Positions 34,785-49,947 of a DNA stretch of 64,000 nt are shown piece by piece (positions within the stretch are counted from its first letter, which is position 1; each line of letters opens with the position of its first letter). Position numbers and translations under genes: made by a program. Source of the DNA: Rubrivirga sp. SAORIC476 (GTDB lineage: Bacteria > Bacteroidota > Rhodothermia > Rhodothermales > Rubricoccaceae); assembly GCF_002283555.1 (NCBI RefSeq), contig NZ_MVOI01000007.1, positions 1-64,000 of the forward strand, in the 5' to 3' direction. The notes beneath the pieces are model-generated. The model was not told the origin of the DNA. It searched no databases and worked only from the letters and a program-made list of their open reading frames with translations.

Positions 34785-35207
34785 AGACGGATCCGTGCGC
34801 CGCGTTGCCCACGCCGCGAGGGCGGGCAGGACCGTCACCTGGACGATGGGGAGCAGGCCGACGTCGTGGCCGGCGACGCGGACGGTCGGCATCTGGTCGG
34901 TGTAGGACCAGAGGTCGAGCCGCTGCGCGGCCCACTCGAGCCCGACGGCGGCGGCGAAGCCGACGCCCAGGAGCGCGGCGGTGCCGCTGGGCGTGAGGCG
35001 CCGGACGGGTTCGCGCCCCACGAGCCGTCCGGCCAGCGCGCCCACCCCGAGATTGATGGCGACGTCGCCGGCGGTGGCCGCGAGCATGAGCGCGTCGTGC
35101 TTGGGCTTCGGCAGGCCCGTCATGTCGTAGAACGGCGGGCACTGGGCGTATTCCCACACGCCGTGGAGGGCGGCGGACCAGAGAGCGAAGCGGGTGCGGG
35201 TCGTCAT
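34779..35207 (-). CDS. Small membrane protein, hypothetical
   Basis: 142 aa with at least three hydrophobic segments (ALWSAALHGVWEY; INLGVGALAGRLV; GTAALLGVGFAAAVGLEW). The pattern TTRTRFALWSAALHGVWEYAQCPPFYDM is typical of an unnamed membrane family next to small metal- or stress-linked operons. Its ATG overlaps the stop of the methyltransferase gene (35204-35207), so the two are probably translated together. Confidence 0.7.
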   Translation of the reverse strand: MTTRTRFALWSAALHGVWEYAQCPPFYDMTGLPKPKHDALMLAATAGDVAINLGVGALAGRLVGREPVRRLTPSGTAALLGVGFAAAVGLEWAAQRLDLWSYTDQMPTVRVAGHDVGLLPIVQVTVLPALAAWATRRTDPST

Positions 35208-35860
35208 GAGATCGGGGGGACGCCGGCGCCGAGGTAAGCGCCGCCGAAGAAGAAGGAGCGGTCGGTGTCGAGCGGCGCGTACCGGTGGAGGACGGGCCGG
35301 AGGTCGCGGCGGGCCATCTCCCACGTCTCGCCAAGCGGCCTGGCGAGCGCGAAGGCGGCCGTCTGGACGAGGCCGGGCCACGCACGTGGGATGCGGAAAT
35401 CCAGAACGGCGACCCGTCCGCCCGGCGTGAGCGCTTGGGCGGCGCGCTCGATGACGGCCTCGGGGTCCGGCATCATCGAGAGAGAGAACGTCGCGAGCAC
35501 GCGGTCCGGCGCGCCGAGGTCGGCCGAGAGGGCGTCGGCGTGGACGAGCTCGACCTGGGGGAGGCCGCGCGTGCGCTGGCGGGCGCGGTCGAGGGCGCCG
35601 GACGACACGTCGAGGCCGACGACGCGCCCGCCCTCCCCCACCGCGCGGGCGAGGAGCGGGAGGTTCCGGCCGGTCCCGCACCCGACGTCGAGGACGGCGT
35701 CGCCGGGGCGGACGTGGAGCGCCTCGATGGCCGCGCGCCGGTAGGCGCCCGCGCGGAAGCCGACGAGCGGGAAGGCCGCCAGCGCGAGGTCGTAGCCGCG
35801 CGCGGTCCGGTCGTAGACCTCGCGGACACGCTCGGTCCAGTCGGCTGGGGAGTCAGGCAT
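35204..35860 (-). CDS. Class I SAM-dependent methyltransferase
   Basis: 218 aa. SAM-binding motif I VLDVGCGTGRNLPLLARAV (about residues 55-73), then acidic loop VVGLDVSSGALDRAR, motif post-I HADALSAD and motif LTPGGRVAVLDFRIP. The layout follows UbiE-like small-molecule methyltransferases. The C-terminal part (RRDLRPVLHRYAPLDTDRSFFFGGAYLGAG) is typical of this subgroup. The substrate is unknown. It sits in an operon with a cupredoxin lipoprotein and the small membrane protein; overlaps both neighbours by a few bases. Confidence 0.8.
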   Translation of the reverse strand: MPDSPADWTERVREVYDRTARGYDLALAAFPLVGFRAGAYRRAAIEALHVRPGDAVLDVGCGTGRNLPLLARAVGEGGRVVGLDVSSGALDRARQRTRGLPQVELVHADALSADLGAPDRVLATFSLSMMPDPEAVIERAAQALTPGGRVAVLDFRIPRAWPGLVQTAAFALARPLGETWEMARRDLRPVLHRYAPLDTDRSFFFGGAYLGAGVPPIS

Positions 35861-36080
35861 CGGCGTCGGCGGGCGTCCAGAGCAATGTGGCGGCGAGAGC
35901 GCGCTCGGCCTTGGCGGCGTCGATCTCGTCGCCCAGGCGGTCGATGCGCGCGAGCGCGAGGCGCCGGACGACGTGGGCGGCCTCGCCGAGCGGGGCGCCG
36001 GCCAGTCCGTCCACGTCGAGACCGAGCGCCCGGGCCGCCGCGAGGAGGCGGTCCCGGTCTACGTGGGTGTCGGCGGGCAC
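35853..36080 (-). CDS. Small hypothetical protein
   Basis: 75 aa, helical (DRDRLLAAARALGLDVDGLAG; VVRRLALARIDRLGDEIDAAKAERALAATLLW). Its 3' end overlaps the methyltransferase start by eight bases and its start is three bases after the cupredoxin stop, so it is a genuine operon member. Function unknown; no metal motif. Confidence 0.6.
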   Translation of the reverse strand: MPADTHVDRDRLLAAARALGLDVDGLAGAPLGEAAHVVRRLALARIDRLGDEIDAAKAERALAATLLWTPADADA

Positions 36081-36083
36081 GGG

Positions 36084-36632
36084 TCAGGAGACGACGGCGA
36101 TGGTCCCGCGCTGCATGTCCATGCCGCAGACGAACTGGACCTCGCCGGCCTCGGTCGGCGTGAACTCGATGGCGACGGGCTCGCCGAGCGGGAGGTCCGT
36201 CGTGGGCACGTCGTAGGCCGGGAGCGTGATCTGGGACGAGCACTCGTCCTCGACCGTCCGCGTGAAGACGAGGCGGGCGGGGACGCCGGCCTCGAGGGCG
36301 ATCTGGCGGGGCTGGTAGCCCATGCGCCCGGCCTCGACCTCGACGACCTGGACGCCGTCGACCATCTCGGGCGCGGCGGCCTCGCCGTCGCCCGAGGCCA
36401 CGTGCTCGTGCTCGGCGCCGTCCATCATCGTGCCGTCGGGCATCTCGTGCATCTTGTCGGTGGCCTCGGCGCCCATGCCGGGCATGTCGGCGCGCTCATC
36501 GGTCGTCGGGACAGGGTCGACGACTTCCTGGACAACTCCGCCGTCGCCATCTCCGTCGCCGCAGGCGGCGAGGGCGAGGGGGGCGACGAGCAGCGCGGCG
36601 AGGATGGCGCGGTAGGGAAGGAAGCGGGTCAT
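36084..36632 (-). CDS. Cupredoxin-domain lipoprotein
   Basis: 182 aa. The signal peptide ends in the lipobox LAACGD (Cys near residue 24). A Met/His/Asp-rich linker follows (ADMPGMGAEATDKMHEMPDGTMMDGAEHEHV, in part) that can bind copper. Residues 95-182 form a cupredoxin fold, YQPRQIALEAGVPARLVFTRTVEDECSSQI, ending in FVCGMDMQRGTIAV with Cys-x-x-x-Met as part of a type 1-like site. Probably an outer- or inner-membrane-anchored periplasmic copper binder working with the efflux pump transcribed just upstream. Confidence 0.85.
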   Translation of the reverse strand: MTRFLPYRAILAALLVAPLALAACGDGDGDGGVVQEVVDPVPTTDERADMPGMGAEATDKMHEMPDGTMMDGAEHEHVASGDGEAAAPEMVDGVQVVEVEAGRMGYQPRQIALEAGVPARLVFTRTVEDECSSQITLPAYDVPTTDLPLGEPVAIEFTPTEAGEVQFVCGMDMQRGTIAVVS

Positions 36633-36653
36633 GGTGTTGGGGATGTTGGGGGG

Positions 36654-37463
36654 TTAGGGGGTACGAGTGAGAGCGGGGAGGTCGGGGTAGTCAGGGAGGA
36701 CGAGCTCGGGGGGCGCGTCTTCGGCGGTGTCGAGGGAGTCCGGCAGGGGGTCGGCCGCTGGCGCGGGGACGTCGGGAGTCAGAGGCACCAGGGAGCCTGT
36801 GTCCACGGCGGGTGCCGTCGGTCCGGACCAGCGGGGAGCGGGCGAGGCCGCCTCGGGGAGACGGACGAGGCGTGCGGGGTCGAGCGGTCGGCCGTCGGCG
36901 TCGCGGACCTCGAAATGGAGGTGGGCGCCCGTCGAGACGCCGTCGCGGCCAGGGCGCCCGCCGCTGGCGCCCAAGGCGACTCCGCGTGCGACGCGGAGGC
37001 CGAGGCGGAGGTCGGCGTCGACGGAGGCGAGGTGGGCGTAGCGCGTGCGGACGGGCTCGCCCGCCCCTCCGATCCCGGCCGGGTGGTCGATCTCGACGAC
37101 GAGCCCGTAGCCGGGCTGGCGCCCGACGGAGCGGACGACGCCCGGCGCGACGGTCCAGACGGCCGTGCCCTCGGGGACCGCGAGGTCGACGCCGTCGTGG
37201 TGGCGGACGCGGCCCGAGACGGGGTGGACGCGCGGTCCGAACGGCGAGCTGATAGGACCCTGGACCGGCCCCATCGGGAGGCGGGCGCTGAGCGCGGGCG
37301 AAGCCTCTGGCGCCAGAGGCTCCGGGGTGGGAGCCGCCAGCGAGACGGGGCCGGCCTCTGGCGGCGGCGCGACCGGGCGGTCCTGGGAGGCGAAGCGCTC
37401 GGCGGTGAAGCCCGAAGCGAGAAGGACGGCCACGACGGCCGCGAGGCGGAGGGGCGGCGTCAT
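36654..37463 (-). CDS. M23 family metallopeptidase
   Basis: 269 aa. The N-terminal hydrophobic segment (LRLAAVVAVLLASGF) is a signal peptide or anchor. The M23 (LytM) domain at residues about 65-180 has ISSPFGPRVHPVSGRVRHHDGVDLAVPEGTAVW (in part, HxxxD) and GAHLHFEVRD (HxH), the zinc ligands. It acts in the periplasm on peptidoglycan. The Pro/Ala-rich C-terminus is variable. It overlaps the cusA stop/start by ATGA (37460-37463), unusual for a peptidase in a metal-efflux operon. Confidence 0.8.
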   Translation of the reverse strand: MTPPLRLAAVVAVLLASGFTAERFASQDRPVAPPPEAGPVSLAAPTPEPLAPEASPALSARLPMGPVQGPISSPFGPRVHPVSGRVRHHDGVDLAVPEGTAVWTVAPGVVRSVGRQPGYGLVVEIDHPAGIGGAGEPVRTRYAHLASVDADLRLGLRVARGVALGASGGRPGRDGVSTGAHLHFEVRDADGRPLDPARLVRLPEAASPAPRWSGPTAPAVDTGSLVPLTPDVPAPAADPLPDSLDTAEDAPPELVLPDYPDLPALTRTP

Positions 37464-40400
37464 GGCGCGGGCGGGGCGTCGTGGGTGCTGGCGCGGGGCG
37501 CCAGCGGTTCGAGCGCGAGGTCGTCGGTCGCCAGCCCGTCGCCGGGCGGCGTCTCGCGGAGCTGGCGTCGGAGCCGACGGCCCTGGACGACGGCGTAGAG
37601 CGCCGGGATCATGACGAGCGTGTGGACCGTCGAGGTGACGAGCCCGCCGACCATGGGGGCCGCGATCCGCTGCATGATCTCGGCGCCCGTGCCCACGCCG
37701 ATCATGGCGGGCGTGAGGCCGAGGATCGTCGTGAAGACCGTCATCAGCTTGGGCCGGACGCGGTCGACGGCGCCCTCTTCGAGGGCCGCCTTGAGGCGCG
37801 GGACGGACGTGAGCCGCCCAGACTCGCGGTAGCGCCGGACGGCCTCATCGAGGTACACGTGCATGACCACGCCGGTCTCGGCCGCCAGCCCGGCCACGGC
37901 GATGAGCCCCACGCCGACGGCGATGGAGAAGTTGAACCCGAGCGCGAGCATGAGCCAGACCGCGCCCACGACGGCGAACGGGAGCGGGATCATCAACAAG
38001 AGCGCCTCCTCCGCGCTCCGGAAGTGGAGGAACAGGAGGAGGAACACGATCGCGAGCGTGACCGGGACAAGCACCGCCAGCCGTCGGTTGGCCCGCTCCA
38101 TGTACTCGTACTGGCCGCTCCACTTGATCGAGTAGCCCGGCGGGAGGTCGACGGCCGCCGCGACGGCCTCGCGGGCGTCGGCGACGTACGAGCCCACGTC
38201 TGCCCCCTCCTCCAGGTCGACGTAGACCCAGGCGTTGGGGCGGGCGTTCTCGGACTTGATCATGGGTGGGCCGCTCGCGAACTCGAACGTCGCCAGCTCG
38301 CCGAGCGGGACCTGGGCGCCGCCCGGCGTCGGGACGAGCACCTGGCGGAGGGCGGGGAGGTCGTCGCGGAGCGCGCGGGGGTAGCGGACGTTGACGCCGT
38401 AGCGCTCGAGCCCCTCGACGGTCGTCGTGACCGTCATCCCGCCGACGGCGGCCTGGAGCACGTCCTGCACGTCGCCCGACGTGAGACCGTATCGGGCGGC
38501 GGCGAAGCGGTCGACCTCGACGTCGAGGAAGCTCCCGCCCATCACGCGCTCGGCGTAGGCGCTCCGCGTGCCGGGGAGCGCGGCCACGGCCCGCTCGACC
38601 TCTTGGCCGAGCCGTTCGAGCGTCTCCAGGTCCTCGCCCGCGATCTTGACCCCGACCGGCGTCTTGATCCCGGTCGCGAGCATGTCGATCCGGGTCTTGA
38701 TCGGCATCGTCCAGGCGTTCGTCAAGCCGGGGAACCGGATGGCCGCGTCGAACGCCCGCGTCAAGCTGTCGCGGTCGACGCCGGGGCGCCACTCGTCCTC
38801 CGGCTTCAGGATGATCGTCGTCTCGATCATCGAGAGCGGGGCGGGGTCCGTCGCCGTCTCGGCCCGGCCGACCTTCCCGAACACGCGCTCGACCTCGGGG
38901 AAGGTGGCCAGGATGCGGTCGGTCCGCTGCAGGATCTCCTTGGCCTCCTGGGGCGAGACGCCGGGGAGCGTCGTCGGCATGTAGAGCATGTCGCCTTCCC
39001 AGAGCGGCGGCATGAACTCGGACCCGATCTGCGGGAACGGGACGTAGGTCTCGCCCAAGAGGAGCCGCTGAACCGGGAGGACCGTCACGAACAGGAGCGA
39101 GAACCCGACCAAGAGCACCGCCTTCGGGTGGCGGAGCGTGCCCCGGATGACGGGCCGGTAGGCGCGGATGAAGAACCGGGCGACGGGGTTCTGCTGCTCC
39201 GACCGGATCTTGCCCTTGACAAACACGGCCATGAGCGCCGGGACGAGCGTGACGGCCAGGATGGACGCGGCCGCCATCGAGAACGTCTTGGTCAGCGCGA
39301 GCGGCCGGAACATCCGGCCCTCGACCTGCTCCAGCGTGAACACGGGCAGGAAGCTGACCGTGACGATGAGGAGCGAGAAGAACAGCGACGGCCCGACCTC
39401 CTTGGCCGCGTCGATGACCGCGCGGACGCGCTCCGAGTCCGCCAGCGGGGGCGGGTCGCCGCTGGCGGCGCCGTCGCCCGAGGTGCTCCGCTTCGCCTCG
39501 CGCGCCCGCTCGATGTGCTTGTGGGCGTTCTCCACCATCACGAGCGAGGCGTCGACCATCACGCCGATCGCGATGGCGATGCCGCCCAGGCTCATGATGT
39601 TGGCGTTGATCCCGAGGAGCCGCATCACGCCCAGTGCGATAAGGATGCCGACCGGGACCGTGACGAGGGCGACGAACGCGCTCCGCACGTGGAGGAGGAA
39701 CACCATGACCACGAGCGCCACGACGAGCATCTCCTCCCAGATCGTCGTCGTGAGCGACGAGACCGCGCTCGCGATGAGCTCGGAGCGGTCGTACTCGGTC
39801 ACGACCTCGACGCCGGGCGGGAGCCCGTCCGAGACCTCGGCGATCCGGGCCTTGACGGCGTCGATCGTGGCCTGGGCGTTCTCGCCCGAGCGCATGACGA
39901 CGATGCCGCCCACGACCTCGCCCTCGCCGTTCACGTCGGCGATCCCGCGACGGATCTCCGGCCCGAGCCGGACCTCGGCGACCTGGCCGATCGTGACGGG
40001 CGTGCCGCCCTCGGCGTTCAAGACCACCTGCCGGATGTCCTCGACGCCGGTGAGGTAGCCCTTCCCGCGGACGATGAACTCGCGCTCGCCGAGCTCCAAG
40101 AGCCGCCCGCCCACGTCGCGGTTCGAGCGCCGGAGCGCCATCGCGACGTGGTTGATCGGGATCCCGTAGGCCGCGAGCGCCTGGGGGTCGACGACGACCT
40201 GGTACTGTTTTTCGAACCCGCCGACGGTCGCCACCTCGGCCACGCCTTCGACGGCCTGGAGCTCGTACTTGAGATAAAAATCCTGGACGGACCGGAGCTG
40301 GGCGAGGTCGTAGGTCCCCGTCGTGTCGCGGAGGCTGTACTGGTAGACCCAGCCGACGCCGGTCGCGTCGGGTCCGAGCGCCGGGGTGGCCTCACTCGGG

Positions 40401-40789
40401 AGCCGGTCCTGGACCTGGCTGAGGTACTCGAGCACGCGGCTCCGCGCCCAGTAGAGGTCGGTCCCGTCCTCGAAGATGACGTAGACGAAGCTCGTCCCGA
40501 ACATGGAGTAGCCCCGGACGGTCCGGGCGCCTGGGACGGAGAGCATGGCGGACGTGAGCGGGTAGGTCACCTGCTCCTCGACGATCTGCGGCCCCTGGCC
40601 GGGGTAGTCGGTCCGGACGATGACCTGGACGTCGGAGAGGTCCGGGATCGCGTCGACGGGCGTCGTGAGCGTGGCCCAGGCGCCGAGCCCGGCCACCATC
40701 AGCGTGACGAGACCGACGAGGAGCCTGTTCTCGGCGCTCCACTCGATGAGGCGCTCCAGGGCACCGTCGCGGGTCTTGTGGTGCTGCAT
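37460..40789 (-). CDS. cusA: CusA-like heavy-metal RND transporter
   Basis: 1109 aa from ATG 40789. It is an RND pump with two periplasmic loops and twelve membrane segments. Diagnostic blocks are PVDAIPDLSDVQVIVRTDYPGQGPQIVEEQVTYPLT (in part), SMFGTSFVYVIFEDGTDLYWARSRV (in part), the proton-relay helix GIAIAIGVMVDASLVMVENAH and the second-half IAVAGLAAETGVVMHVYLDEAV. These mark the Cus/Czc heavy-metal class, not multidrug RND. Start follows the cusB stop by two bases. Together with the next two genes it forms a CusCBA complex exporting Cu(I) or Ag(I). Confidence 0.95.
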   Translation of the reverse strand: MQHHKTRDGALERLIEWSAENRLLVGLVTLMVAGLGAWATLTTPVDAIPDLSDVQVIVRTDYPGQGPQIVEEQVTYPLTSAMLSVPGARTVRGYSMFGTSFVYVIFEDGTDLYWARSRVLEYLSQVQDRLPSEATPALGPDATGVGWVYQYSLRDTTGTYDLAQLRSVQDFYLKYELQAVEGVAEVATVGGFEKQYQVVVDPQALAAYGIPINHVAMALRRSNRDVGGRLLELGEREFIVRGKGYLTGVEDIRQVVLNAEGGTPVTIGQVAEVRLGPEIRRGIADVNGEGEVVGGIVVMRSGENAQATIDAVKARIAEVSDGLPPGVEVVTEYDRSELIASAVSSLTTTIWEEMLVVALVVMVFLLHVRSAFVALVTVPVGILIALGVMRLLGINANIMSLGGIAIAIGVMVDASLVMVENAHKHIERAREAKRSTSGDGAASGDPPPLADSERVRAVIDAAKEVGPSLFFSLLIVTVSFLPVFTLEQVEGRMFRPLALTKTFSMAAASILAVTLVPALMAVFVKGKIRSEQQNPVARFFIRAYRPVIRGTLRHPKAVLLVGFSLLFVTVLPVQRLLLGETYVPFPQIGSEFMPPLWEGDMLYMPTTLPGVSPQEAKEILQRTDRILATFPEVERVFGKVGRAETATDPAPLSMIETTIILKPEDEWRPGVDRDSLTRAFDAAIRFPGLTNAWTMPIKTRIDMLATGIKTPVGVKIAGEDLETLERLGQEVERAVAALPGTRSAYAERVMGGSFLDVEVDRFAAARYGLTSGDVQDVLQAAVGGMTVTTTVEGLERYGVNVRYPRALRDDLPALRQVLVPTPGGAQVPLGELATFEFASGPPMIKSENARPNAWVYVDLEEGADVGSYVADAREAVAAAVDLPPGYSIKWSGQYEYMERANRRLAVLVPVTLAIVFLLLFLHFRSAEEALLLMIPLPFAVVGAVWLMLALGFNFSIAVGVGLIAVAGLAAETGVVMHVYLDEAVRRYRESGRLTSVPRLKAALEEGAVDRVRPKLMTVFTTILGLTPAMIGVGTGAEIMQRIAAPMVGGLVTSTVHTLVMIPALYAVVQGRRLRRQLRETPPGDGLATDDLALEPLAPRASTHDAPPAP

Positions 40790-40791
40790 GG

Positions 40792-42219
40792 TTACTCGGT
40801 CCCCATGTCCATCTCGCCCATGTCCATCCCCGGCATCGACTGCATCGCGCCGAGGGACGCCGCCAGTCGGGCCTCGGAGTCGATGAGGAACTGGGCGCTC
40901 GTGACGACGCGGTCGCCGGGCTCGACGCCCGAGAGCACGCGGACGAGCCCGTTGGCTTCCTCGCCGAGCGTGACCGGCTGCGGCCGGAACCGGCCCTCGC
41001 CGAGGGCCAGGATGACGGCCGCCCCGTCGCCGTCGCGTACGACGGCCTCGGCGGGCACGACCGGGCCGACCTCCGAGAGGTCGCCGTAGAGCGTGGCCGT
41101 CGCGAACATCCCGGGCCGCAAGCGGCCCCCGGCGTTGGGGACGGTGATCCGGGCCGTGCCGGTCCGGGTGGCCGGGTCGAGCGTGTCGTAGACGTAGTCG
41201 ACGCGGCCCCGGAGCTCCTCGCCGGGGAACGCCGCCAGCGTCACGACGCCGCGCGTGCCGGTGCGGACCCAGCCGAGATCGCGCTCGGGGACATCGACCT
41301 GGAGGTAGAGGCTCCCGAAGTCGACGATGTCCATGAGCGGCTGGCCCGGCGCGGCCTGCATCCCCTCGACGATCCGGCGGTTCTGGACCGTGCCCGAGGC
41401 GGGCGCGAAGAGCGTGATCCGCTCCCGGATCATCCCGCTCCGTTCGACGACGCTGATCTGCCCCGCCCCCAGCCCGAAGAGCCGGAGCCGCGTGCGGGCC
41501 GCCTCGACGAGCCGGTCGGCCCCGTCGCCGCCGCCCAAGAGCTCGCGGTTGCGGACCGCCAAGAGCAGCTCCTGCTGCGTGGACACCAGCTCGGGGCTGT
41601 AGATCTCGAGGAGCGGCTGGCCCTGGCGGACCCGCTGGCCCTCGGTGTCGACGTAGAGGTTCTCCACGAACCCGCCGACGCGGAGCGTGACCGTCTCGCG
41701 CGCGGCGTCGCGGGCCTCGAAGGTGCCCGTCGTGCGGAGCGTCCGCTCGAGCTGGCGCTCCTGGACGACGGCCGTCCGCACGCCGATGTTCTGGAGCGTG
41801 ACCGGGTCGATCTCGACGGTCCCGGCCGGGGCGCCGCTCACGGGCACGGGCTCGAGGTCCATCCCACAGATCGGGCACGTTCCCGGCTCGTCCTCGACGA
41901 TCCACGGGTGCATCCCGGACTGGTAGACGACGCCGTCGCCGTTGAGGTCGAACTGCGCGAGGCCGCCCTGGGGACCGTCGCCGGAGGCGTCCGCTGCGCC
42001 GCCGTCGCCGGGGGCAGCGGCGGGCGGGGCCTCGGCGACGGCGTCAGAGCTGTCGCCGCGCGTGAGCGCCCAGGTGAGGCCGACGGCGACGACGAGGGCG
42101 AGGAGGGCGAGCATGACCCAACGCGCGCGGCGGGGGCGGTTGGGGTCCCGGGGCGCGTCGGCGTAGGCGTCGGCCGGGTCGGTGGCCTCGGGGGCCACGC
42201 TTGGGGCGTCGGTGATCAT
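40792..42219 (-). CDS. cusB: CusB-like periplasmic adaptor with heavy-metal-binding domain
   Basis: 475 aa. A membrane anchor spans residues 35-53 (VMLALLALVVAVGLTWALT). Next is a heavy-metal-binding domain, YQSGMHPWIVEDEPGTCPICGMDLEPV (C-P-I-C-G-M), then the adaptor hairpin and beta barrel (LRVGGFVENLYVDTEGQRVRQGQPLLEIYSPELV; FAPASGTVQNRRIVEGM; in parts). The C-terminus is Met-rich (MQSMPGMDMGEMDMG), a copper-binding tail. It overlaps the next gene (outer-membrane factor) by ATGA. It links CusA to the outer-membrane channel and loads metal. Confidence 0.95.
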   Translation of the reverse strand: MITDAPSVAPEATDPADAYADAPRDPNRPRRARWVMLALLALVVAVGLTWALTRGDSSDAVAEAPPAAAPGDGGAADASGDGPQGGLAQFDLNGDGVVYQSGMHPWIVEDEPGTCPICGMDLEPVPVSGAPAGTVEIDPVTLQNIGVRTAVVQERQLERTLRTTGTFEARDAARETVTLRVGGFVENLYVDTEGQRVRQGQPLLEIYSPELVSTQQELLLAVRNRELLGGGDGADRLVEAARTRLRLFGLGAGQISVVERSGMIRERITLFAPASGTVQNRRIVEGMQAAPGQPLMDIVDFGSLYLQVDVPERDLGWVRTGTRGVVTLAAFPGEELRGRVDYVYDTLDPATRTGTARITVPNAGGRLRPGMFATATLYGDLSEVGPVVPAEAVVRDGDGAAVILALGEGRFRPQPVTLGEEANGLVRVLSGVEPGDRVVTSAQFLIDSEARLAASLGAMQSMPGMDMGEMDMGTE

Positions 42220-43499
42220 CGGGCGGGGGGTCCGAGGAGGGGGGCGGTGGCGCCGAGGGCGCGGGCGAGGTCGGCGGCAGCGTCGAGGAGCCGGGCGCGG
42301 GCGTCGACGAATCCGAGGGCCACGGAGAACCGGGCGCGCTCGGCGTCGAGGAAGGCGAGGAAGTCGAGGGCGCCCGTCGTGTAGCCCGCGAGGGCGCTCT
42401 CGACGGTCGTCTCGGCCTGGGGCACGAGCGTCTCGCGATAGAGCGCGACGGCCTCGGCCGCGCGGCGGGCGTCGGAGAGCGCGTCGGCCACGTCGGTCTG
42501 GACGGCCGTCTCGGTGGCGGCGAGGCGGGCCCTCGCGGCCTCTTCGCGGAGGCGGGCCTGGTCGAGCCCGGCGCGGCGGGAGGCCCGGTCGAGCGGGATG
42601 CGGACCGACGCCATGAGCCCGAGCGCGTCGCGGCCGGTGGCCGTCGGCGGGGAGTCGGCCTGGGCGATGTCCGTGTAGACGACGCCGAATCCGAGGTCGG
42701 GGTAGAACGCCTTCTCGGCGAGCGCGACGTCGGCCTCGGCCGCGGTGATGCGAGCCTGGGCCTGGGCGACCTCGGGGCGCGTCTCGACCGCGAGGGCGGC
42801 GAGGTCATCCGCCTCGGGGAGCGCCGGGACGATCGCAACGACGCGGCCGACGGTGAGGGCGGGCCGGTCGAGGACGCGCGCGAGCGTCTGGACCGCGGCG
42901 TCCCGCTCGCGGGCGAGCGTGATCAGGCGCTCGTCGAGCCGCTGGCGCTCGAGCTGGACCTGGAGAACGGCGCCCTGCGGCCCGCGGCCGACCTCGTAGC
43001 GGACGGCCGCGGCCTCGGCGAAGGCGCCCAGGCGGGCCTGGAACGCACGGACGACGTCGGCGGCCTCCTGCGTACGGACGAGGTCGGCGTAGGCGCGCGT
43101 GGCGCGGCGCGCGAGGTCGAGCGCGGTCGCGTCGCCCCCCCAGCGGGCGGCCTCGGCCCGGGCGTCGGCGGCGTCGCGGCGGAGCCCGAGCGTGCCGGGC
43201 CAGGGCAGCATCTGCTCGACGCGCCACTGGGATCGCTGTGTGCCCCGCGCGGTCAGGATCGGGTAGGGCGCGACCATGACGGATGCGGTCGGGTCGGGGA
43301 GCGCGCCCACCTGGTCGCCGCGCCGGGCGAGCGCACGGGCGTCGAGGCGCTCGGCCGCGAGCGTCGGGTTGTCCGCGTAGAGAGCGTCCAGGACGGCGCC
43401 GAGGCGGAGGGTGTCGGGGGCCTGAGCTCGCACGGTGGGGACCGCGGCGAGAGCCAGGGAGAGGAGCAGCGCTAGACGGGCTGCGGCGAGGGGGGGCAT
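42216..43499 (-). CDS. cusC: TolC-family outer-membrane efflux channel
   Basis: 427 aa. The signal peptide is MPPLAAARLALLLSLALAAVPTVRAQA. The body has the duplicated helical-barrel pattern of TolC: LGAVLDALYADNPTLAAERLDARALARRGDQVGALPDPTAS (in part) and the second repeat ETRPEVAQAQARITAAEADVALAEKAFYPDLGFGVVY (in part). Overlap with cusB by four bases shows co-translation. Order cusC-cusB-cusA matches copper/silver RND operons. Confidence 0.9.
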   Translation of the reverse strand: MPPLAAARLALLLSLALAAVPTVRAQAPDTLRLGAVLDALYADNPTLAAERLDARALARRGDQVGALPDPTASVMVAPYPILTARGTQRSQWRVEQMLPWPGTLGLRRDAADARAEAARWGGDATALDLARRATRAYADLVRTQEAADVVRAFQARLGAFAEAAAVRYEVGRGPQGAVLQVQLERQRLDERLITLARERDAAVQTLARVLDRPALTVGRVVAIVPALPEADDLAALAVETRPEVAQAQARITAAEADVALAEKAFYPDLGFGVVYTDIAQADSPPTATGRDALGLMASVRIPLDRASRRAGLDQARLREEAARARLAATETAVQTDVADALSDARRAAEAVALYRETLVPQAETTVESALAGYTTGALDFLAFLDAERARFSVALGFVDARARLLDAAADLARALGATAPLLGPPAR

Positions 43500-43582
43500 G
43501 GTCTGGAGCGGACGGACGACAGCAGGACGGGCGCATTAGCGCCGGGCGCAGAGGCGCGGCGCGGGGGCGCAGGCTGTCGGGC

Positions 43583-43966
43583 TCAGACCAGCAGGACCGA
43601 GAGGGCGAGGTGGCGCCGGGGGCCGGGCGGCGGTCCAGCGTCGGGCGGCGCGGCGGCGGGAACGACGGCTGGGGGTGCCAGCACGGCGAGCGCGGCGGCC
43701 ACGACCGGCTCCAGAGGGGCCGGGGGCGCCGGGACGACGGCATCGCGCGGACCCTCGGGCGCACTGATGCAGCACGTTGACGTGTCGGCAGGGGCCCCGT
43801 CGGGAGCCCCCGACGGCGTCGTGTGGCCCATCCGCTCGCAGTGGCTCCGCGTGTCCTCGCCCAGCGCGTCGGCGACGGCCGCCGCGGCGGGGCCGACGGC
43901 CGCTGCAAGGAGGACAGCGGCGAGAAGGGCCGCCAGCCCGCGGAACGGGTGGGTGGGACGAGTCAT
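43583..43966 (-). CDS. Small exported protein with Cys/His pair, putative copper-linked
   Basis: 127 aa from ATG 43966 (MTRPTHPFRG). The hydrophobic segment AALLAAVLLAAAVGPAAAAV is a signal peptide or anchor, then HCERMGHTTPSGAPDGAPADTSTCCISA (in part) brings Cys, His, Met and a CC pair, consistent with metal binding. The rest is Pro/Ala-rich and ends RRHLALSVLLV. It resembles small copper-inducible leader-gene proteins of the CopL type. The CCTTAAA-N6-TCAGGT motif lies 43 bases upstream. Confidence 0.6.
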   Translation of the reverse strand: MTRPTHPFRGLAALLAAVLLAAAVGPAAAAVADALGEDTRSHCERMGHTTPSGAPDGAPADTSTCCISAPEGPRDAVVPAPPAPLEPVVAAALAVLAPPAVVPAAAPPDAGPPPGPRRHLALSVLLV

Positions 43967-44008
43967 GAAAGGGATGCAGGCAGTATCGGCCATTTATTCC
44001 GCCGCTTG

Positions 44009-44027
44009 CCTTAAATGCCGCTCAGGT
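44009..44027. promoter_or_regulatory. CCTTAAA-N6-TCAGGT element, copy B
   Basis: It lies between the divergent genes at 43966 (minus) and 44149 (copA, plus). CCGCTC-AGGTA-GAGCGG, overlapping the right half, is also a perfect inverted repeat at 44018-44034. Candidate operator for both directions. Confidence 0.65.
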
Positions 44028-44148: not shown

Positions 44149-46683
44149 ATGCCCGCAGCTCTCGCCTCCGATCCCCTTCCCGTCGCCTCGGGCGACGGGG
44201 TCTCGCCGCCCGACGTGCAGTCACGCGCGACCCTGGGCGTGGAGGGGATGACGTGCGCAGCCTGTTCGACACGAGTCGAGAAGGCCCTTCAGGCCGTTCC
44301 GGGCGTCCACGAGGCGACGGTCAACCTGGCGACCGAGCGGGCGACGGTCCGGTTCGACGCGGCCGAGACGACGCCGCTGGCGCTCGCGGAGGCCGTCCAG
44401 CGCGCGGGCTACGACGTGCGGACCGAGGAGGTCTCGTTCGCCGTCAGCGGGATGACGTGCGCGGCGTGCGTCGGGCGCGTCGAGAAGGCGCTCCAAGGGG
44501 CGGACGGCGTGGTCGAGGCGTCGGTGAACCTGGCGACCGAGCGCGCCCGCGTCCGCTACGCGGCCGGGACCGACGTCGAGGCGCTGTACGAGGCCGTCCG
44601 CCGGACCGGGTACGACGTGGTCGAGGCGACGGACGGGGCGACGGCCGAGGACGCCGAGCGCGAGGCGCGCGAGCTCGATCGAGGGCGGCTGCGGCGGCGC
44701 CTGTTGTGGGCGGCCGGGCTCTCGCTCCCGCTGTTCCTGGTGGAGATGGTCCCGATGGCGATCCCCGGCGGGATGGCGTGGGTGGACGGGCTCGTCCCGA
44801 TGCAGACGCGGTGGCTCGTGGCCTTTGGGCTGGCGACGGCCGTCCAGTTCGGGCCGGGCTGGCGGTTCTACCGCGCCGGGTGGGCGGCGGCCCGGCACGG
44901 GTCGCCCGACATGAACACCCTCGTCGCGCTCGGCACGACGGCGGCCTACGGGTACTCCGTCATCGCGACGTTCCTGCCGGGCGTGCTCCCGGCCGGCGCC
45001 GTCCACGTCTACTACGAGGCGTCGGCGACGATCATCACGCTGATCCTCCTGGGCAAGTGGTTCGAGGCGCGGGCGAAGGGGCAGACCTCGGACGCCGTCC
45101 GCGCGCTCTTGGGACTGAGGGCCGAGACCGCCCGCGTGGTCCAGGGTGGCGTCGAAACGGAAGTGCCCATCGAGGACGTGGCCGTGGGCGACGTCGTCCG
45201 CATCCGCCCCGGCGAGAAGGTGCCGGTCGACGGCGTCGTGACCGAGGGGACGAGCTACGTCGACGAGTCGATGGTGACGGGCGAGCCGGTGCCGGTCGAG
45301 AAGACCGAGGGCGGGGCGGTCGTGGGAGGGACGGTGAACCAGGCCGGGGCGCTCTTGGTCGAGACGACGCACGTGGGCGCCGACACGGTCCTCGCGCAGA
45401 TCGTCCAGCTCGTCGAGGAGGCGCAGGCGTCGCGCCCGGCCATCCAGGCGCTGGCGGACCGCGTCGTCGCCGTGTTCGTGCCCATCGTCCTCGTCGTCGC
45501 CGCGGTCGTGTTCGGGGTCTGGCTCGCCGTCGGCCCGAGCCCGGCGCTGACCTACGCCCTCGTGGCCGCCGTCTCGGTCCTCATCATCGCGTGCCCCTGC
45601 GCGATGGGGCTCGCGACGCCCGTATCGGTCATGGTCGGGACCGGGAAGGCGGCCGAGTTGGGCGTCCTGTTCCGCAAGGGCGAGGCGTTGCAGACGCTGA
45701 GCGAGGCCGACGTGGTCGCCCTCGACAAGACGGGGACGCTCACGGAGGGGCGCCCGACGCTCACCGACGTGGCGCTGGCGCCGGAGGCCGGTCTGAGCGA
45801 GAGCGACCTGCTCCGGCTGGTGGCCGCGGTCGAGGTGTCGAGCGAGCACCCCGTCGCCGACGCCATCGTCCGGGCCGCCGACGAGCGCGAGATCGACCTC
45901 CCGACCGCGTCCGACTTCGAGGCCGTGCCCGGCTTCGGCGTGCGCGGCGTGGTGGAGGGCCGCCGCGTCGAGGTCGGCGCTGACCGGTTCATGGAACGGA
46001 TCGGGCTCGACGTGGGGCCGCTGTCCGACGCTGCGGGCGCGCTCGCGGCCGAGGGCAAGACGCCGCTCTACGCGGCCGTCGACGGCGAGCTGGTGGCGGC
46101 GCTCGCCGTGGCCGACCCCGTGAAGGCGACGACGCCCGCGGCCATCGAGGCGCTCCACCGCGCCGGGCTCCGCGTGGCGATGATCACGGGCGACAACCGC
46201 GCCACGGCCCAAGCGATCGCGCGGCGGCTGGGGATCGACGAGGTGCTCGCCGAGGTGCTCCCGGCCGACAAGGCACAGGCCGTCCGCGACGTGCAGGGCG
46301 AGGGGCGGCGCGTGGCGTTCGTCGGCGACGGGATCAACGACGCGCCCGCGCTCGCCCAGGCCGACGTGGGCGTGGCCATCGGGACCGGGACCGACGTCGC
46401 CATCGAGGCGGCCGACGTGGTGCTCATGCGCGGCGACCTCACGGCGCTCGTCGAGGCCCGGGCGCTGAGCGCGGCCACGCTCCGCAACGTCAAGCAAAAC
46501 CTGTTCTGGGCCTTCGCCTACAACGTCGTGCTCATCCCGGTCGCGGCGGGCGCGCTGTACCCGGTGTTCGGCGTGCTGCTCTCGCCGGTCCTGGGCGCGG
46601 CGGCGATGGGGCTCTCGTCGGTCTTCGTGCTCACGAACGCGCTCCGCTTGCGCCGCTTCACCCCGCCGAGGGTGGCGGGGTAA
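44149..46683 (+). CDS. copA: CopA-like copper-translocating P-type ATPase
   Basis: 844 aa from ATG 44149; the frame is open to 44074, but the upstream part is not P-type-like. Two HMA domains carry [15 protein letters not shown] and [15 protein letters not shown]. The P1B core follows: membrane CPC in [26 protein letters not shown] phosphorylation site, [10 protein letters not shown] (SEHP), [29 protein letters not shown] and the C-terminal membrane pair. Exports Cu(I) from cytoplasm to periplasm, working ahead of the Cus pump. Confidence 0.95.
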
Positions 46684-46728
46684 CGCTCCGTGCCTCGCTG
46701 CGTTTGTCTGGGTGCCTCCTTCCGATCC

Positions 46729-47535
46729 ATGTCCGTCTCCCCCACCCTGCTCGACCAAACCCTCGCCGCCCAGGGCGAGGCGCTCGTCGCCTACGTCCGC
46801 CAGCGGCTCGGGCCGGAGGCGGCCCAAGACGTGGTCCAGGACGCGCTCCTCCGCCTGGCCGAACGCGCGCCCGAGTTGGACGACCAGGCCGACCTCACGC
46901 GCTGGCTGTGGCGGGTCGTCCGCAACGCGACCGTCGACGCCAACCGGCGACGGGAGGCCGCCGAGCGCCGCGAGACCGCGTGGGCGTCCGAGCAGCCCGA
47001 GGCTGCGATGCCGGCTGGCGACGAGCCCGCGTTGTGCGCGTGCTACCGCCCGCTCCTGGACGGGCTGGCGCCCCAGGCCGCCGAGGTGCTCCGCGCTGAC
47101 CTCAACGGCGAGGACCCCGCCGCGCTGGCGGACCGGCTCGGCGTCACCCCGGGCGCCCTCCGCGTCCGCCGCCACCGCGCCCGGGCGGCCCTGGGCGAGC
47201 GGCTGGCCGACGTGTGCCGCGCGTGCGCGGGCTGCCTCGACTGCTCGTGCGCCCCTCCCCCATCCGATTCCCCCGCTTCACTCTCCACCCCCACCATGGA
47301 CACACCAAACACCTCCCAGAACGACCAGACCTTGCGCTTCGGCATCGAGGGCATGACGTGCGGCGGCTGCGTCGCCGCCGTGACGAGGGCGCTGGACCGG
47401 ACGCCCGGCGTGGCCGTCGAGCACGTCGGCCTGAACGAGCCCGCCGTCGTCCGGCTCTCCGACGGCGCCGACCGCGAGGCCGTGCGCGGCGCCGTCGAGG
47501 GCGCGGGCTTCCGCCCCGTGTTCGACGCCGCCTGA
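46729..47535 (+). CDS. CorE-like ECF sigma factor fused to a heavy-metal-associated domain
   Basis: 268 aa from ATG 46729. Residues 1-150 are ECF sigma regions 2 and 4 (QDVVQDALLRLAERAPELDDQADLTRWLWRVVRNATVDANR, in part; DPAALADRLGVTPGALRVRRHRARAALGE). Residues about 163-178 hold a Cys-rich patch, C-x2-C-x2-C-x2-C-x-C (VCRACAGCLDCSC), as in copper-responsive CorE-type factors. After a Pro/Ser linker comes an HMA domain, IEGMTCGGCVAAVTRALDR. The frame is continuous; an in-frame ATG at 47296 could start a free HMA chaperone (79 aa). Predicted copper sensor and activator of this island. Confidence 0.8.
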   Translation: MSVSPTLLDQTLAAQGEALVAYVRQRLGPEAAQDVVQDALLRLAERAPELDDQADLTRWLWRVVRNATVDANRRREAAERRETAWASEQPEAAMPAGDEPALCACYRPLLDGLAPQAAEVLRADLNGEDPAALADRLGVTPGALRVRRHRARAALGERLADVCRACAGCLDCSCAPPPSDSPASLSTPTMDTPNTSQNDQTLRFGIEGMTCGGCVAAVTRALDRTPGVAVEHVGLNEPAVVRLSDGADREAVRGAVEGAGFRPVFDAA

Positions 47536-47596
47536 GCCTCCGGCTCGTCGGCTGGGGCCGCCAGACACCCTCACGGGGGTGCCCGGCGGCCCCAAA

Positions 47597-47615
47597 CCTT
47601 AAAAGGCGCTCAGGT
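47597..47615. promoter_or_regulatory. CCTTAAA-N6-TCAGGT element, copy C
   Basis: CCTTAAA-AGGCGC-TCAGGT followed by GAGACGGAAT. It lies 69 bases upstream of the DUF305 gene on the plus strand, in a clean intergenic gap. Confidence 0.65.
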
Positions 47616-47683: not shown

Positions 47684-48532
47684 ATGTCATACGGACGCTT
47701 CTTCGCGATGATCGCCGCCTCGACGGTGGCCATGTTCATCCTCATGTACTCGACGGTCTTCTCCACGGACCACATCTGGTGGAGCAGCACGAAGACGCTG
47801 ATGGCGGTCTACATGGGGGCCACGATGGCCGTCATCATGCTCGCCTTCATGCTAAAGATGTACGACGACAAGCGGAAGAACGTCGCCATCTTCGTCGGGA
47901 GCGCCGTCGTGTTCGCGCTCGCGTTCTTCCTGTTCCGGGGGCAGACGACGGTCGGCGACGTGACGTGGATGAAGCAGATGATCCCGCACCACTCGCTGGC
48001 GATCCTGACGAGCGAGCGGGCCAACATCTCGGACCCCCGCGTGCGTCGCCTCGCCGACGAGATCATTCTGGCCCAGCGCCGCGAGATCGCCGAGATGGAG
48101 GCGCTCATCGGCGACCTCGAAGACTCGGACTACGAGAGCCCTGACCTCCCGCCGACGGTGCCGGAGGTCGAGGGCGGCTCGGAGGACATTCCGGAGGCGC
48201 CCGTCCTGACCGTCGGCGCGAGCCCCTTCCGGGGCGACGTGCTGGTCCTGGACGAGGTGACGGTCGAGTCGGACGCCTGGGTCGTCGTCCATCCCGAGGC
48301 GCCGGGCGGCGGGCCAGACGCCACGCAGGTTCTGGGGCGCTCGTTCGTGATGCACGGGACGAGCGAGCGCGTGCCGGTCGACCTCGACGCGCCGCCGACG
48401 GGGACGCTGTACGTGATGCTCCACGACGACACCGGCGAGATCGGCCGGTTCGAGTTCGGTGGGGCCGGGACGCCCGACCAGCCGCTCACGTCGGGCGGCG
48501 CGCCCGTCGTCGTCGAGGTCTCGGTGCGGTAA
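47684..48532 (+). CDS. DUF305 membrane protein
   Basis: 282 aa. Three membrane helices open the protein (FFAMIAASTVAMFILMY; LMAVYMGATMAVIMLAFML; NVAIFVGSAVVFALAFFLF). DUF305 follows: WMKQMIPHHSLAILTSERANISDPRVRRLADEIILAQRREIAEMEAL (in part), with the His pair likely binding metal. A C-terminal periplasmic beta domain (residues about 180-282) ends the protein. DUF305 proteins commonly accompany copper and silver resistance genes. It has the shared upstream element. Confidence 0.85.
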   Translation: MSYGRFFAMIAASTVAMFILMYSTVFSTDHIWWSSTKTLMAVYMGATMAVIMLAFMLKMYDDKRKNVAIFVGSAVVFALAFFLFRGQTTVGDVTWMKQMIPHHSLAILTSERANISDPRVRRLADEIILAQRREIAEMEALIGDLEDSDYESPDLPPTVPEVEGGSEDIPEAPVLTVGASPFRGDVLVLDEVTVESDAWVVVHPEAPGGGPDATQVLGRSFVMHGTSERVPVDLDAPPTGTLYVMLHDDTGEIGRFEFGGAGTPDQPLTSGGAPVVVEVSVR

Positions 48533-49533: not shown

Positions 49534-49947
49534 CTAGGCCGTCGCGCCCTGGGGCATGGCGTCGAGGAGCGACTGGCAGGCCTTCGAGCACTCGCGGCAG
49601 CACTCCATGCACACGCGGCAGTGGTCGTGCATGTCGGCGTGCTTCTCGCACTCGTCGGCACAGGCGTCGCAGGCGACGCGGCAGGCCTCGAGCTGGGCGC
49701 GGAGGAGCTGCGTGTTGGGCTCGGTCATCCGCGAGACGGCCCGGCCCGTCACGGCGCAGACGTCGGCACAGTCGAGGTTGGTGCGGATGCAGTACGTGAG
49801 GTCCATGTCCGAGTCCTCGCCGAGGCAGGCGTCGGCGCAGCTCGTACAGCACTGCTCGCAGGCGAAGGCGGAGTTGACGAGCGCGACGATCTGGTCGAGC
49901 TGGTCGGACGGGTTGGGGTGGGTGGAGAGGATGTCCTGGGTGCGCAT
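49534..49947 (-). CDS. Csp-like four-helix-bundle copper storage protein
   Basis: 137 aa, about 17 cysteines. The repeated C-x2-C-type pattern lines helices: SAFACEQCCTSCADACLGED, NLDCADVCAVTGRAV, LEACRVACDACADECEKHADMHDHCRVCMECCRECSKAC (in part). This is the Csp (DUF326) family, tetrameric bundles that hold many Cu(I) ions in the cytosol. There is no signal peptide, so it is the cytosolic Csp3 type. It follows the copper cluster. Confidence 0.9.
   Translation of the reverse strand: MRTQDILSTHPNPSDQLDQIVALVNSAFACEQCCTSCADACLGEDSDMDLTYCIRTNLDCADVCAVTGRAVSRMTEPNTQLLRAQLEACRVACDACADECEKHADMHDHCRVCMECCRECSKACQSLLDAMPQGATA

Follow-up and report, generated by a model that had tools for sequence, protein, structure and literature searches.

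The closest described relatives of the protein analyzed here are CorE-like ECF sigma factors, represented by CorE of Myxococcus xanthus (former ECF44 / ECF238). According to PMC8999054, a hallmark of this group is a CXC motif between sigma2 and sigma4, and CorE-type factors need this sigma-linker motif as well as their Cys-rich tail. CorE has cysteines at positions 181, 184, 189, 192 and 194, and it is reported to be active with Cu(II) but to be turned off by Cu(I) (PMC3107203). The tail cysteines 181, 184, 192 and 194 are described as invariant. The CorE authors propose that an unidentified Cu(II)-specific metallochaperone acts upstream of CorE, and their promoter rule asks for AAC followed by a G 16-18 nt further on (PMC3107203). 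C-terminal fusions of a regulatory domain to an ECF sigma factor have been reported for the groups ECF41, ECF42 and ECF56 (PMC8999054).

We analyzed a 64,000-nt stretch of DNA (the window), in which positions 46729-47535 of the forward strand form a single open frame of 268 codons running from ATG to TGA. Six full-length copies of this gene were aligned. The sequence M[SP]xSPTLL following ATG 46729 is conserved across all six loci; this start is supported, and an upstream GTG at 46690 appears unnecessary. The 268-residue protein contains sigma-70 region 2 (residues 18-76, 46780-46956; Pfam PF04542, Sigma70_r2, E 2.9e-9) and sigma-70 region 4 (residues 109-155, 47053-47193; PF08281, Sigma70_r4_2, E 2.7e-6), connected by a segment with the CXC motif C103-A-C105 (47035-47043). 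A Cys-rich tail, C163-x2-C166-x2-C169-x2-C172-x-C174 (47215-47250), and a linker (residues 175-200, 47251-47328) lead into a CopZ-like HMA domain (47338-47511; Pfam residues 204-261, E 5.6e-8) that carries GMTCGGC at residues 208-214; all of these features lie on the forward strand. Each of the three domains exceeds its Pfam gathering cut-off, and the HMA domain (PF00403, 33.5 versus 24.8 bits) has its CxxC in the first loop, as befits a family member. Scores stay below the curated cut-offs of the NCBIfam CopZ metallochaperone model NF047957 (42.7 versus 85 bits) and of SigZ TIGR02959 (71.7 versus 168.65 bits). The domain thus shares its fold and the GMTCxxC site with CopZ / HMA copper chaperones, but it is fused behind a sigma factor and lies below the CopZ cut-off.

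An AlphaFold2 model calculated from 12 sequences (mean pLDDT 73.6, pTM 0.35) predicts the sigma helices and, for the HMA part, a beta-alpha-beta-beta-alpha-beta fold. Residues 168-197 were modeled with low confidence (pLDDT below 50), and the linker is mostly predicted to be disordered. The pTM value does not support any fixed docking between the domains. In Foldseek searches the fused protein matches ECF sigma factors, and its HMA part matches copper chaperones such as CopZ (6ff2, TMt 0.86, E 3.7e-3). An earlier note, made from the sequence alone, had read sigma regions, a Cys-rich patch and an HMA domain with GMTCGGC in one frame, and the frame and the Pfam assignments bear out this architecture. 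The CXC motif, the second CorE hallmark, was absent from that note, which held that CorE-type factors sense copper with the tail alone; this statement has to be corrected, as the sigma-linker CXC is described as required too (PMC8999054).

We compared the sigma part with CorE. Regions 2 and 4 are present by Pfam, C103-A-C105 is found between them in all six fused copies (its two cysteines being nearly invariant when unfused relatives are included), and C163, C166, C172 and C174 occupy the positions of the four invariant tail cysteines in 6/6 copies. C169, the counterpart of CorE Cys189, is likewise present in all six. The order of the tail cysteines is thus that of CorE, and in both systems copper genes including copA lie nearby. 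CorE-like factors lack a linked anti-sigma factor; in the part of the six loci that was scanned, none was seen adjacent to the fused gene, whose immediate neighbors in the window are copA and a DUF305 gene. The earlier assignment to copper-type sigma factors is supported by the sigma regions, the CXC motif and the tail cysteines, and by the position directly behind copA. There are also differences. The fused protein adds a C-terminal HMA domain, its tail cysteines are spaced 2-2-2-1 rather than 2-4-2-1, and CorE Cys206 has no counterpart in the fused tail, where the next cysteines sit in the HMA domain. Two residues are missing between the second and third Cys relative to CorE. This pair is present in the tails of four unfused CLDC/CVDC-type sequences (G042, G095, G179, G394) and includes the His position of three of them. 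The resulting tail, CRACAGCLDC, occurs in 6/6 fused copies and in 0/4 of these unfused sequences, a pattern suggestive of co-adaptation. With the two residues gone, the fused sigma factor may not sense as CorE does. Unlike ECF41, ECF42 and ECF56, the protein carries a metallochaperone as its extension, separated from the sigma part by a CorE-type sensor tail. By the hallmarks examined, it appears to be a CorE-like sigma factor that has an additional chaperone domain and a modified tail, and we found no earlier report of an ECF sigma-HMA fusion in the open-licence papers searched.

Other CorE-like sigma factors were seen in the same genomes and in relatives. Beyond the window, G000 encodes a second one that lacks an HMA domain (C7:75727-76305, locus L126; 41% identical, tail CTACPDHGFHACDC). 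This second sigma factor is present in G001, G002 and G008 as well; the G000 gene has a two-mismatch copper box at a distance of about 0.8 kb. At loci L121-L125 (G045, G047-G050), unfused CorE-like sigma factors immediately precede a His-rich ATPase-like frame, another sensor-target pairing; their tails have the form CxxC...DCxC, without the third Cys.

The fused gene is embedded among copper genes. It follows copA, encoding a Cu P-type ATPase with two HMA domains (44149-46683, +), whose stop lies 45 nt upstream of the sigma-CopZ ATG; order and strand are constant in all six fused loci, with gaps of 14-46 nt. Downstream are a membrane protein (47684-48532, +), in which DUF7282 and, below cut-off, a CopM-like DUF305 were recognized, and a Csp-like four-helix Cys-rich protein of the copper storage type, also below cut-off (49534-49947, -). 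Divergent from copA, positions 35204-43993 (-) encode a methyltransferase, a cupredoxin-like protein, an M23 peptidase, an RND pump and an outer-membrane efflux protein, with the efflux protein, the pump and the cupredoxin located from 43.5 kb leftward. This cluster may be a Cus-like operon for copper efflux whose intergenic region also holds the copA box.

A search for other fusions, suggested in the earlier note, returned fused homologues in further genomes of the order. Among 114 genomes, full-length fused copies were found in G000, G001 (two), G002, G003 and G041. Copies other than that of the window are 72-76% identical to it, and none has a stop. Their linkers measure 24, 24, 25, 26, 28 and 28 residues, the window's included, all in frame and stop-free. 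Most of the fused relatives belong to one genus. G041 is from a different family, yet its copy is 74% identical to that of the window and thus no less similar than the copies within the genus (72-76%), which hints at horizontal transfer. The fused sequences cluster as a single group (support 95/95) in a tree built from 24 sigma sequences, so that one origin suffices. G008 carries the gene in pieces on two contigs, without any difference from the window's sequence in the parts that are there, and it was left out of the alignments for both reasons. This assembly (contigs C141, C153, C171) is placed in another genus although its pieces are 100% identical to the window's fused gene; such identity across genera is odd, and we therefore count G008 as the window's own lineage. 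The assembly is possibly mis-binned.

Wider searches recovered the fusion in this clade only. The 244 genomes of the class contain none besides those in G000, G001, G002, G003, G041 and G008, and none was seen among 395 genomes sampled from the phylum, in 26 genomes of other groups reached via weak matches (represented by 27 of the 44 loci L012-L055, less L054), or in 12 plasmid records with a match, where no place covered 80% of the query. A scan of contigs from 84,980 species gave no fusion outside this clade; it used short peptide seeds, and diverged fusions could therefore escape it. A local HMM check of 185 loci found both domains in 21 frames, all from this clade, with several loci overlapping one gene. 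Two diverged copA-sigma-CopZ blocks are present in G001 (C5:159077-159886 and C1:1882366-1883157), belonging to different sub-branches of the fused clade. Copper islands bearing the fusion lie on contigs of 113-170 kb (G000:C7, 138,760 b; G001:C5, 170,049 b; G003:C11, 113,154 b), and the C5 island is separate from the 4.7-Mb contig that carries the other fused copy of G001. A plasmid or mobile island is possible.

We consider it probable, though by no means assured, that this protein is a CorE-like, metal-responsive ECF sigma factor joined to CopZ, which would serve these bacteria as their main cytosolic copper sensor and control its own operon. Upon copper entry, the HMA domain on its flexible linker of about 25 residues would meet the CXC motif and the Cys-rich site of the sigma part and swap copper with them in cis by thiol ligand exchange. 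Such chaperone-to-regulator transfer has a known example in CopZ, which passes copper to the CopY repressor (PMC10141476). The HMA domain may also exchange copper with the HMA domains of CopA. Occupancy would render the sigma factor able or unable to bind promoters, and sensing would be coupled to the chaperone pool and not to free copper. The HMA domain could equally be an off-switch, taking part in a Cu(I) inactivation step, because Cu(I) is reported to inactivate CorE and CopZ-type HMA domains carry Cu(I).

Copper boxes are found at 44008-44027 (+; GCCTTAAATGCCGCTCAGGT), 122 nt before the copA ATG, and at 47596-47615 (+; ACCTTAAAAGGCGCTCAGGT), 69 nt before the next gene, which encodes the DUF305 protein. 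The intergenic regions upstream of these two genes have TTAAAnGnCGCTCAGGT in common, for which the mean chance expectation is 0.32 when up to 3 mismatches are allowed. The window's own genome contains 4 places within two mismatches, all on the window's contig (reversed control, 1). A stricter 20-bp pattern, ACCTTAAANGNNNNTCAGGT, has 16 exact sites in 6/114 genomes of the order. These are exactly the fusion-bearing ones, a co-distribution that spans only a small number of independent lineages, chiefly a single genus and G041. None of the 108 other genomes has the pattern, and the reversed-pattern control yields 3 sites in 3 other genomes. G040, a congener of G041, has neither a fusion match nor a box. 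All 16 exact sites flank copper genes: four lie about 122-125 nt from the conserved start of copA (at L175 also 9 nt from an in-frame ATG), seven lie 68-115 nt from DUF305 genes (at L180 the first ATG is 10 nt away and the conserved start about 81 nt), three, reversed, lie 59-61 nt from a His-rich Cu ATPase, and two, also reversed, 84 nt from a Csp-like gene. At L170 the box is also 65 nt away from the start of a small forward frame, and a two-mismatch site is located 61 nt from a copper_res_A multicopper oxidase.

The two halves of the box form a near-dyad, ACCTTA-N8-TCAGGT (ACCT...AGGT, plus an A at 5 and a T at 14), and the box is reversed relative to the gene at 5/16 sites; a dimeric regulator therefore suits it better than a sigma factor does. 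CueR/MerR operators have the form ACCTT...AAGGT, which the box resembles. No strongly conserved -10 element was found at the usual distance downstream, where a classical ECF -35/-10 reading would place it. Another, dimeric regulator might hence bind the box and control copA, with the fused sigma factor as a passenger or co-regulator, an alternative that we take seriously while leaning against it. It concerns the box and is compatible with the fusion having a function of its own, so that the likelihoods assigned to the two need not add up to certainty. As candidates for such a regulator, CsoR and CueR are weakened by their absences: CsoR was found in 0/6 of the genomes with fusion and box (it is present in 30/108 others of the order), and of these six only G001, G002 and G008 gave a CueR-like MerR protein, with none found in G000, G003 and G041. 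Beside the boxes, no other regulator gene stood out in gene calls read by eye. Speaking for the sigma factor as reader are the exact co-distribution, a box in front of the operon to which it belongs and the absence of the usual sensors as given above, and the CorE promoter rule nearly, if not exactly, fits ACC...GG in the box (PMC3107203).

The fusion most likely arose from the adjacent operon genes sigma and copZ by loss of a stop, because G042, from the family of G041, keeps sigma, copZ and copA separate but adjacent. There, sigma ends in ...CRACAEHGCLDCTCTTLS and TGA, copZ is in a different frame, and 32 nt separate the last Cys codon from the copZ ATG. The gene order differs, with copA preceding the fused gene and following copZ in G042. 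We calculated pN/pS for each part from 14/15 pairs, leaving out the nearly identical pair G002/G001C5, and obtained 0.467 for sigma, 0.053 for the Cys tail, 0.911 for the linker and 0.392 for HMA. The low values in sigma, Cys tail and HMA indicate that both ends are under protein-level selection; the linker appears to be under almost none.

The linker carries an ATG at 47296-47298 (+; residue 190), which the earlier note had pointed out as a possible internal start and which could initiate a free CopZ of 79 residues. A linker Met occurs 7-10 residues ahead of HMA in 6/6 fused copies despite variable surroundings. Its start-like leader, in which pyrimidines make up 0.75 or more of the 20 nt and G occurs no more than once, is likewise found in 6/6, compared with 1/556 other internal ATGs and 4/51 gene starts (heuristic calls), although the thresholds were chosen after the fused leaders had been seen and Pro/Ser/Thr codons are pyrimidine-rich anyway. 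The leader fits inheritance from the old copZ start and is possibly still used, and the ATG is compatible with a second, free CopZ product, an addition to the mechanism that we infer with less confidence than the rest. In E. coli, the single gene copA / CopA(Z) gives rise, by ribosomal frameshifting, to a free copper chaperone alongside a larger product (PMC6747150, citing Meydan 2017). The likeness lies in one gene with two such products, the free chaperone being a candidate here; the difference is that internal initiation, if anything, would operate here, and that the partner is a sigma factor. A separate CopZ is encoded in G000, the window's own genome (82-codon frame, C3:1489564), close behind a second copA and is 68% identical to the fused HMA, so that free CopZ need not derive from the fused gene. 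It is tempting, if somewhat speculative, to picture a one-gene copper circuit in which exchange between HMA and tail in cis reads chaperone loading while the same mRNA provides free CopZ for CopA. If true, the chaperone sought by the CorE authors would here be tethered in cis, and the protein would act as the main cytosolic copper sensor in genomes where a CueR-like protein or CsoR was not found.

The selection data also bear on a passive origin, in which loss of the stop left the sigma factor with an HMA tail that does it no harm and has no part in sensing, and working CopZ comes from the internal ATG or a separate copZ. The near-neutral and disordered linker, the retained ATG with its leader and the low pTM, with no fixed docking between the domains, would all suit such a by-product. 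We nevertheless regard it as unlikely, as the frame has outlasted several in-frame length changes among the diverged copies, two of them in G001, and the shortened tail is confined to the fused sequences in this comparison. That a sequencing error deleted a stop near 47290, or that the genes are in fact separate, can be dismissed, since separate assemblies share the open frame with different linker lengths and nothing was found in support of an artefact; the single-gene fusion described in the earlier note is real and inherited.

A natural fusion of a CorE-like sigma factor with CopZ indicates the kind of partner that CorE may have, and it allows a direct test of the old proposal that a copper chaperone loads CorE-like switches. 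It offers a single protein in which one could measure copper transfer and abolish it with point mutations, and the copper box, present in all six fusion genomes and in no other of the order, provides ready reporter targets. It also raises a sharp question, as CorE is reported to be switched on with Cu(II) and off with Cu(I), yet CopZ is a Cu(I) carrier.
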